DNA of 64,000 nucleotides from contig NZ_CDBO01000040.1 in the NCBI RefSeq assembly GCF_000819885.1, forward strand, positions 62,001-126,000, written 5' to 3'. This DNA comes from Aeromonas fluvialis (GTDB lineage: Bacteria > Pseudomonadota > Gammaproteobacteria > Enterobacterales > Aeromonadaceae). Below, one piece after another: positions 8,155 through 10,090 of this stretch (within the stretch, counting starts at the first letter, position 1; every line of letters starts with the position of its first letter). Below the pieces are notes generated by a model that was given only the letters and a program-made list of their open reading frames with translations, was not told the DNA's origin and did not search any database. A program made the translations under genes and the position numbers.

Positions 8155-8682
8155 TTAGCGCGCGCGGTTGCGCCGCCCATCCTTTTTATTGACCTGTACT
8201 GCCGGCACTGGCATCGCCAGCGGGGCAAACTCTTTCATGACCCGGCGGTACACTTCCCGCTTGAACGAGACAACCTGACGCACCGGGTACCAGAAACTGA
8301 CCCAACGCCAATCATCAAATTCAGGGTGGCCATGACAACCGAACTGGATCCGCGACTCTCTACCCGGATTCAGCTGTAACAGGAACCATTTTTGTTTTTG
8401 GCCAATACAGACCGGTGAACTGTCCCAACGGACAAGGCGTTTGGGTAAACGATACTTTAGCCAGTTGCGACTGGTGGCCATGATGGTCACATCCTCGGGC
8501 TTGAGGCCAATCTCCTCATACAGCTCTCGATACATGGCCTGCTCTGGCGTTTCACCATCATCAACCCCCCCCTGCGGAAATTGCCAGGAGTGCTGCCCAT
8601 AGCGTTTAGCCCACAACACTTGTCCTTCACGGTTACAGATCACGATACCGACATTGGGACGAAATCCGTCACCATCAATCAC
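8155..8682 (-). CDS. rppH: RNA pyrophosphohydrolase RppH
   Basis: RppH removes pyrophosphate from the 5' end of mRNA, triggering RNase E decay. The 175-residue protein carries a full Nudix box, [22 protein letters not shown] (residues 38-59, with Glu53, Glu56 and Glu57 for metal binding). It starts at GTG 8682 behind AAGGTGAT; E. coli rppH also begins [17 protein letters not shown] at the equivalent place. It is the first gene of the rppH-ptsP-lgt-thyA operon; its promoter must lie in the DnaA-box-rich spacer to its right. Confidence 0.97.
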
Positions 8683-9415
8683 GTGATCACCTTATAAAGG
8701 CTGAATCTATAAGGAGATTGTTCCACATTCACCCCGTGGCAGCAAACAAGGAGTGAATCCCCTGTTTCATGAATAACTTTCAATTTCAAACATACTTATA
8801 AACAAATCCAAGGATCCGATCCCCCAAGTTGCCCACCCAGACTGTGCATAAAGCTGTTAGCAAACGGGTATATACAGTACTTTTTAACTGTGTGTGAAAA
8901 GTGCCCCTCCGCATCACCACGTAATATTAAATATTAAAAAGCCTTATTATACATAAGCTTGAATCGAAAAAACCAGATCTGGCTCCATGTCACCCCCAGC
9001 GCCAGATCCACGATTAAGATTGTGAACAAGTTTAACTGCTCAAAGATCCACCACGGTGAAATTATCCACAGGAGTGGCACAATATCTACCCCATTAACCC
9101 TGTAAAAATGGGGTGGCATTCACAATTTTTTGTAACATATCAGCGACTCCACTCACTTTCATCCACTTATCCAAGATTTCTGTGGATAACTGTGTGTAAC
9201 ATCATGCACAAACCCTTGGACAACTATTTCGAGGTCAAACCTGATCTGGCTTACTGCTCGATAAAACAGATAAAGTACTTTAAAATCATAATGATGAACA
9301 TCTAGCACTCAAATTATCCATGTTTGATCTTATCCGTTCAGGATCGGTTATAAAAACAACGATCCTGCGCGGGATCCTCCCCTGTTAGAATATGGCGAGC
9401 AAGATGGAGCCAAAC
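8683..9415. promoter_or_regulatory. Non-coding rppH-mutH spacer with DnaA-box cluster (candidate DARS2-type locus)
   Basis: No convincing gene in these 733 AT-rich bases, the largest gap in the window. Three exact TTATNCACA DnaA boxes occur: TGTGCATAA (8843-8851, reverse), TTATCCACA (9062-9070, forward) and TGTGGATAA (9181-9189, reverse). One-mismatch boxes lie at 8945-8953, 9021-9029, 9191-9199 and 9202-9210. About 0.02 exact boxes would be expected by chance with equal base use. Eleven GATC sites are also present. From memory, the E. coli DnaA-reactivating sequence DARS2 lies beside mutH, so this is probably its counterpart. It also has to contain the divergent promoters of rppH and mutH. 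Confidence 0.6.
9326..9376. promoter_or_regulatory. Four closely spaced GATC sites at the mutH promoter
   Basis: GATC starts at 9326, 9342, 9361 and 9373, that is four Dam sites within 51 bases, with spacings of 16, 19 and 12. Such spacing suits cooperative SeqA binding to hemimethylated DNA. The cluster ends 40 bases before the mutH start, and MutH itself cuts at hemimethylated GATC. Functional control is inferred only. Confidence 0.5.
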
Positions 9416-10090
9416 ATGCCAAGCAATCCCCAATCCGAACAGGAATTATTAAGCCGCGCCTACGCCATGGCAGGCTTCACCTTGGCGCAACTGGCTGCCG
9501 AGGCCGGTGTGCCAGTCCCCAACGATCTGCGGCGGGACAAGGGGTGGGTCGGTCAGCTGATCGAACTGCAACTGGGGGCCAGTGCTGGCAGCAAACCTGA
9601 GCAAGACTTCCCGGATCTGGGCATTGAGCTCAAGACGATCCCCATCGATCCTCAAGGCAAGCCACTGGAGACCACCTTCGTCTGCGTTGCCCCGTTGATC
9701 GGCGTCAGCGGCCAGCGCTGGGAGGAGTCGAACGTGCGCAACAAATTGTCACGGGTACTCTGGATCCCGGTGGAAGGCAGCCGCGAGATCCCGGTTGGCG
9801 AGCGGCGGGTAGGTATGCCATTGATGTGGAGCCCGAATGAAGAGGAAGACCGGCTACTACGTCAGGACTGGGAAGAACTGATGGACATGATAGTGCTGGG
9901 GGAAGTGGAGCAGATCAGCGCACGCCACGGCCAGGTGATGCAACTGCGGCCCAAGGCAGCCAACAACAAGGCGCTGACTCGTGCCATCGGCCGCGATGGT
10001 CAACCCATCATGACCCTGCCCCGCGGCTTCTATCTCAAGATCGATTTCACCCACAGCCTGCTGCAACGCTATTTTGCCTTGCCGGCTTGA
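9416..10090 (+). CDS. mutH: DNA mismatch repair endonuclease MutH
   Basis: MutH nicks the unmethylated strand at hemimethylated GATC during mismatch repair, under MutL control. The catalytic D-x6-E-x-K motif is Asp64, Glu71 and Lys73 in [13 protein letters not shown], and the [21 protein letters not shown] block is typical. I place the start at ATG 9416 (224 residues) because GGAG sits six bases ahead and the length matches the family; an ATG at 9392 is in frame but has no ribosome site. Its presence implies a Dam-methylating organism. rppH and mutH are neighbours in E. coli also. Confidence 0.96.

Follow-up and report, generated by a model that had tools for sequence, protein, structure and literature searches.

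A candidate DARS2-type element in the spacer between rppH and mutH of Aeromonas

The DNA analyzed here is a 64-kb window that comprises positions 62001-126000 of contig C40 from a draft genome (G000; 3.9 Mb, 76 contigs) whose MutH has Aeromonas sobria as its closest named relative (99%). The gene order ptsP-rppH (reverse strand), spacer, and mutH (forward strand) was confirmed in the window and matches that of E. coli MG1655. In the window, the left neighbor is rppH (RNA pyrophosphohydrolase, NUDIX, 2.2e-25; 8155-8682, reverse) and the right neighbor is mutH (MutH, 5.1e-37; 9392-10090, forward), and both genes occupy these same places in MG1655. The original prediction for this locus had set the spacer at 8683-9415; if mutH starts at its first ATG (9392), the spacer is 8683-9391, and 9415 would imply use of the third ATG. 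On the basis of its box layout and conservation, this entire spacer (no strand assigned) is the candidate Aeromonas DARS2. Its GC content is 40% vs. 60% for the window. The five ORFs of at least 40 aa within it (44-65 aa) are open and in frame in just 8 to 15 of 37 Aeromonas spacers, and an Rfam search of 8600-9500 returned a single match (E = 0.66, 13.4 bits vs. a gathering score of 65); a spacer-encoded gene or RNA was rejected on these results, the lack of a believable gene having been anticipated. A terminator hairpin was likewise rejected, since the two terminator-like matches in the spacer both lie apart from the box triples described below. In all seven genomes checked, the distance between dnaA and the candidate element amounts to 12-15% of the chromosome, and E. 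coli DARS2 lies ~20.6% from oriC by map minutes (PMC5742627 and PMC4585315; here and below, published features are given as they stand in the accessible parts of the cited papers). The host also encodes DnaA, Fis, and IHF-alpha, the gene search having covered the alpha subunit of IHF. One other Aeromonas genome has two mutH copies with equal scores located 56 kb apart (G035:C1:505644 and 561462), and therefore it perhaps carries two DARS2 copies or else an assembly duplication.

All three of the exact TTATNCACA boxes originally reported in the spacer are present (8843-8851, reverse; 9062-9070, forward; 9181-9189, reverse), and these are the sole exact matches in the 64-kb window. The claim that such a cluster is far beyond chance was borne out, as none of 2,000 dinucleotide-preserving spacer shuffles reached three exact boxes (shuffle mean 0.05); the 0.02 boxes originally expected had assumed equal base use, and the spacer dinucleotide content raises this figure to 0.05. 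Using the TTWTNCACA pattern, three exact matches were observed against a shuffle mean of 0.12 (reached by 1 of 2,000 shuffles), while 12 matches with ≤1 mismatch were observed against a mean of 2.1 (0 of 2,000). When the whole window was shuffled, one of 100 shuffles also showed three exact boxes somewhere. Four additional one-mismatch boxes had been proposed, which is about right: a hand count against the stricter TTATNCACA gives five, and TTWTNCACA gives nine over 8683-9415 (8719, 8796, 8891, 8893, 8947, 9021, 9191, 9193, and 9202). Across the 3.9-Mb genome, the exact box occurs 62 times vs. 27 for the reversed pattern, or ~0.01 per spacer length. Three exact boxes fall within 750 bp at two places in the draft genome, whose contig ends could split further clusters: the rppH-mutH spacer and C69:70643-71370. 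The latter has two boxes between ORFs reading as mioC and mnmG and a third in front of the mioC-like ORF, with dnaA ~22 kb away, and it is very probably the oriC region.

A DARS core consists of boxes I-III, with box I opposed to boxes II and III and the same spacing shared by DARS1 and DARS2 (PMC5742627), and core box I is reported to be crucial in E. coli DARS2 (PMC4585315). The latter also contains the IHF sites IBS1-2, which are separated by 3 bp, a 21-mer that is crucial and carries the Fis sites FBS2-3 (PMC4245941), and a box V beside Fis sites (PMC8682772). The original prediction had placed E. coli DARS2 beside mutH, and our check agrees: rppH and mutH flank the MG1655 spacer and the published DARS2 core lies inside it. 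The published primers for replacement of boxes I-III (PMC4585315) fit the MG1655 spacer, one arm by search and the other by eye, and place the core near rppH. We scanned for the DARS geometry I-5-II-3-III, in which box I is opposed to II and III with gaps of 5 and 3 bp, and this recovered the E. coli cores of both DARS2 and DARS1, the latter between bioD and uvrB. At the same cut-off, the 64-kb window yields 9167-9201 alone, as TTATCCAAG-5-TGTGGATAA-3-TGTGTAACA, with a score reached by none of 1,000 spacer shuffles. A weaker triple at 8829-8863 scores under the cut-off and is placed where the E. coli core would fall. The DARS geometry occurs twice in the Aeromonas spacer with an exact box II in both cases. 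The assignment of the three exact boxes can accordingly be refined: the first is core 1 box II, the second is box V, and the third belongs as box II to another core-like triple (core 2). Searching the genome for the core pattern with ≤3 mismatches gave four matches vs. one in the reversed control, with core 2 the best (0 mismatches) and core 1 the weakest. Local alignment of the E. coli and Aeromonas spacers scored 52, whereas no score above 33 arose among 500 shuffles, and the best match was to the mutH-proximal triple, rather than core 1.

The same boxes could in principle form a datA-like site that titrates DnaA or drives ATP hydrolysis with no reactivation, which would fit with several strong boxes, a possible IHF site, and the rarity of exact-box triple clusters (one of just two in the genome). 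However, the head-to-head I-5-II-3-III arrangement, present twice, is the published mark of DARS (PMC5742627, PMC10380432), and the E. coli datA neighbors glyV-X-Y, yjeV, and queG (PMC10380432) are absent, whereas the DARS2 neighbors are present. We therefore consider a datA-like function to be very improbable.

In Aeromonas, core 1 (8829-8863) is followed in order by IHF-like sites, which are weak, then by a Fis-like motif and box V, and finally by the second core-like triple (9167-9201). In core 1, box I (TTGCCCACC; 8829-8837, forward) is weak with 3 mismatches, box II (TTATGCACA; 8843-8851, reverse) is exact, and box III (TTGCTAACA; 8855-8863, reverse) has 3 mismatches. Box V (TTATCCACA; 9062-9070, forward) is exact and is preceded by a reverse box with a single mismatch 41 bp upstream (TTGTTCACA; 9021-9029, V-41). 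Core 2 combines a box I with 2 mismatches (TTATCCAAG; 9167-9175, forward), an exact box II (TTATCCACA; 9181-9189, reverse), and a box III with 1 mismatch from the DARS-geometry scan (TGTTACACA; 9193-9201, reverse). Boxes I and III therefore have 3 and 3 mismatches in core 1 and 2 and 1 in core 2, with 1 each in E. coli DARS2. Directly after core 2, ACAAACCCTTGGACA (9208-9222) is 0.94 conserved in Aeromonas and was not seen at the counterpart place in E. coli. To the left of core 1, a pair comprised of a reverse TTATTCATG (8768-8776, box-like, 2 mismatches) and a forward TTATAAACA (8796-8804, 1 mismatch) is conserved across Aeromonas, each arm at 0.997 among the 37 genomes, and TTATAAACA also appears in 14 of 21 rows of an order-wide alignment, E. 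coli included.

Conservation was assessed in 37 Aeromonas genomes, which is everything that the genus search gave and includes the window's own genome. The boxes are indeed conserved among these: box V is identical in 37/37, both triples keep their spacing within 1 bp, and box V and both box II sites do so in every genome searched, even though single boxes of the triples are weaker in some genomes. The V-41 reverse box is identical in 37/37, core 2 box II in 36/37, and core 2 box I in 33/37. Core 1 box II fits TTWTNCACA in all 37. Core 1 box I reads TTGCCCACC in 30/37 and has 3 mismatches in 34/37 and 2 in the other three, while core 1 box III (mean 2.3 mismatches) is the most variable, with 8 forms and its starting TGT lost in three genomes. 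For comparison, the spacer alignment has a mean column conservation of 0.76 with 168 of 709 columns invariant. Among the weak boxes, conservation is high at 8719, 8796, and 9021 and intermediate at 8947 and 9191, while those at 8891, 8893, and 9202 show no conservation among the 37 spacers and are probably chance matches. The 20 named Aeromonas loci, largely the same genomes again, agree with this result. Nearer to mutH, ATCGGTTATAAAAAC (9343-9357) is 0.91 conserved and is perhaps part of the mutH promoter.

A divergent spacer with conserved stretches adjoining both genes and with core 2 located ~190 bp before mutH might also be expected if DnaA acted here as a transcription factor at the rppH and mutH promoters. 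Against this, the spacings of 118-119 and 218-219 bp are held while the intervening stretches drift, the nearer start codon is >140 bp from core 1 and >320 bp from box V, and the promoter-like matches in the spacer (4 vs. 2.0 in shuffles) include none near the start codon of rppH or mutH. We regard a promoter-regulating role as even less probable than a datA-like one.

If the spacer is a DARS2, sites for IHF and Fis would be expected between core 1 and box V. The interval separating core 1 box II from box V measures 218-219 bp in all 37 Aeromonas genomes, 196-199 bp in 47/47 enteric spacers, and 197 bp in E. coli. The E. coli IHF consensus matches fall at V-118 and V-102, 3 bp apart as published, which supports the site register used here. 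The best average IHF offset is V-113 in Aeromonas and V-102 in enterics. In the latter, it is 4.5 sd out, and in Aeromonas V-113 is a weak match with a mean of 2.95 mismatches, which is 2.9 sd under the average for 340 offset-strand pairs, and with V-41 next (3.11). In the window, the corresponding IHF-like stretch (8949-8964, no strand assigned) has 2 mismatches at V-110 and 3 at V-113 by hand and is suggestive only. The core-to-box V distance is thus 22 bp longer and the IHF offset shifts from V-102 to V-113, which lengthens both intervals by 11 bp, or about one helical turn. When the IHF sites of E. coli are moved toward the Fis sites, a shift of 10 bp is better tolerated than one of 5 bp, whereas shifts of 5 or 10 bp toward the core both leave only partial activity (PMC4245941). 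Because the Aeromonas IHF assignment is weak, a one-turn lengthening on either side of the IHF position is a hint only, albeit one that would offer a natural test for the bending model. As for Fis, a Fis-like motif with an internal GATC (GCTCAAAGATCCACC; 9038-9052, forward) lies at V-24 and corresponds to the AAAGATCAACCA stretch that precedes box V in E. coli. There, GGCGAAAGATCAACC at V-25 is the equivalent of GCTCAAAGATCCACC, and the sequence directly before box V is CAAAGATCCACCA in Aeromonas and GAAAGATCAACCA in E. coli. Our placement of FBS2-3 is deduced from the Fis consensus and the 21-bp length given in PMC4245941. Within the V-24 motif, AAAGA is found in 37/37 and GATC in 35/37 Aeromonas genomes, and the motif departs from the Fis consensus by 1.84 mismatches on average. 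Among the 37 genomes, two other Fis offsets, V+15 and V-7, both fit better than V-24, and V+15 (GCACAATATCTACCC; 9077-9091, forward) is the best tested with a mean of 0.38 mismatches.

A DARS1-like core, TTACCCACA-5-TGTGGATAA-3-TGTTTATGA, is also present upstream of uvrB (L187:1501-1535; G000:C55:30324 onward). Its pattern recurs in 36/37 Aeromonas genomes, with uvrB adjoining in the 20 loci examined, and its box I shares with that of core 1 a C at position 4. By hand, it was placed ~43-47% of the chromosome from dnaA in seven Aeromonas genomes. A third core-like site, CTATCCACA-5-TGTGGAAAA, lies between ORFs reading as ilvH and pta in one genome (G023, L221:1616-1645) and other Aeromonas, with G000 not among the matches listed; as the ilvH-like and pta-like genes converge, it may be just a terminator hairpin. 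Of all the alternatives, the least probable is a decayed DARS2 in which ancestral sites remain and reactivation has moved to DARS1 or elsewhere, as the off-consensus core 1 box I in all 37 Aeromonas and the DARS1-like core in 36/37 would allow, given that box V and the V-41 reverse box are identical in 37/37 and core 2 box II in 36/37 vs. the spacer mean of 0.76.

We also compared the two cores across other gamma-proteobacteria. Out of 172 upstream regions, 157 had an rppH-mutH spacer, the 15 without a divergent rppH within 1.5 kb being dropped, and 139 of these were used, having an exact box V and an exact reverse box 112-131 bp on; the 18 without these or too short before box V were left out, as was L179, which has a different offset. 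This set counts a number of Aeromonas genomes twice, and one Aeromonas spacer in the 37-genome conservation counts (L070, core 2 box II of TGTGGACAA) falls outside of it. The commonest distance from box V to core 2 box II across the 139 spacers was 119 bp; the 47 enteric spacers had been selected for a distance of exactly 119 bp, and their own 119 therefore reflects that choice. Mean mismatches for boxes I, II, and III were 1.0, 1.15, and 0.94 in core 1 and 2.81, 0, and 2.34 in core 2 of the enterics; 1.0, 0.1, and 0.7 vs. 3.9, 0, and 4.5 in the 10 Vibrio-like spacers; 2.92, 0, and 2.3 vs. 2.08, 0.03, and 1.08 in the 37 Aeromonas; and 2.0, 0, and 1.2 vs. 2.0, 0, and 1.8 in a group of five made up of Zobellella and four spacers that we take to be of its family. 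Compared with the enterics, Vibrio-like, and Zobellella groups, Aeromonas stands out for a core 1 box I that is the weakest and a core 2 box III that is the best. Among the matches listed for the three spacers of family f13, core 2 box I is better (1 to 2 mismatches) and box III has 3. The pattern across groups hints at an element with two cores. Raw correlations between the cores (rho of -0.87 for 139 spacers, -0.69 for 30 representatives, and -0.84 for 10 hand-made groups) might suggest compensation, a weak core 1 being paired with a strong core 2, but this was not supported by independent contrasts on an RppH tree (-0.06), with 27 of 53 joint changes opposite in direction. The apparent trade-off stems from a few deep splits, and therefore compensation is not claimed. 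Box I of one core showed no relation to box I of the other (0.01), in a set with core 2 mis-picked in Aeromonas and one relative.

The right half of E. coli DARS2 together with boxes IV-VI is reported to be dispensable for stimulation of initiation from a plasmid (PMC4245941). The published 455-bp E. coli fragment may not reach the mutH-proximal triple. No mention of a second core-like triple was found in the accessible parts of the open-access DARS2 literature, nor any paper pairing DARS2 with 'DnaA box VI'. The conserved mutH-proximal triple is the more interesting point here: despite the reported dispensability of the right half, it gives the best local match between E. coli and Aeromonas. 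A tentative reading, which we consider unlikely, is that DARS2 has two cores: the mutH-proximal triple, whose distance to box V stays at ~119 bp in Aeromonas and enterics alike, would be a real core that has been reduced to one box in Vibrio and weakened in E. coli, and in Aeromonas, where core 1 box I is off consensus, it would perform most of the ADP release.

Taken together, the shared E. coli neighborhood, the ordered sites, and the conservation of the boxes in Aeromonas support the DARS2-type interpretation, and judged from sequence the Aeromonas spacer is most likely an orthologue of E. coli DARS2 that very probably helps to time DNA replication. The site arrangement, its conservation, and the gene neighborhood are direct observations, and from them we infer each of the following binding and exchange steps using the E. 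coli system as a guide. ADP-DnaA would bind the head-to-head core boxes I and II with III behind, while IHF would bend the DNA that separates the core from box V, and Fis would occupy its site directly ahead of box V. This bending together with Fis would push the DnaA pair into ADP release, and the resulting apo-DnaA would take up ATP to serve the next replication round. Accumulated ATP-DnaA could then displace Fis via box V and nearby sites to shut off the element. The prediction also held the element to be undescribed in Aeromonas, and we found no open-access paper linking DARS2 with Aeromonas; judged by titles and the openings of abstracts, the open-access literature on the DnaA box and Aeromonas replication initiation likewise yielded none on this subject. 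DARS-like sequences are stated to occur in many proteobacteria (PMC10380432, PMC4245941), and DARS2 relatives have been shown in Vibrio cholerae and Shewanella denitrificans (PMC8682772, Fig. 8 legend). As relatives of DARS2 are already published in gamma-proteobacteria, Aeromonas extends a known family, and the DnaA recharging switch of E. coli would now extend to this genus with exact coordinates.

Among the known systems, the V. cholerae and S. denitrificans loci are reported to have a homologous DARS2 core, FBS2-3, and box V region (PMC8682772). The 10 Vibrio-like spacers (four from Vibrio/Photobacterium and six of one family) similarly have a core and the 118-120 bp spacing, but their core 1 is strong and their core 2 keeps box II alone, and direct alignment of the Aeromonas spacer with a Vibrio spacer gives a score that hardly exceeds those of shuffles, being reached by 2 of 500. 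E. coli DARS1 has the same three-box geometry and shares TTATCCA, 7 bp, TGTGGATAA, 3 bp, TGTGTA with Aeromonas core 2; however, its locus is bioD-uvrB, and a separate DARS1-like core is present in Aeromonas upstream of uvrB. That core is nearer to the terminus than E. coli DARS1, which lies ~33% from oriC by map minutes (PMC5742627, PMC4585315). E. coli DARS2 resembles the Aeromonas element in its rppH-mutH location, the I-5-II-3-III core geometry, an AAAGATC motif ahead of an exact TTATCCACA box V, and a reverse TTATCCACA placed 119 bp beyond box V (118-119 bp in Aeromonas). The two differ in that Aeromonas core 1 is 22 bp farther from box V and has a weak box I, the Aeromonas IHF match is weaker, and boxes I and III of core 2 are nearer to consensus in Aeromonas (2 and 1 mismatches) than in E. 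coli (3 and 2).
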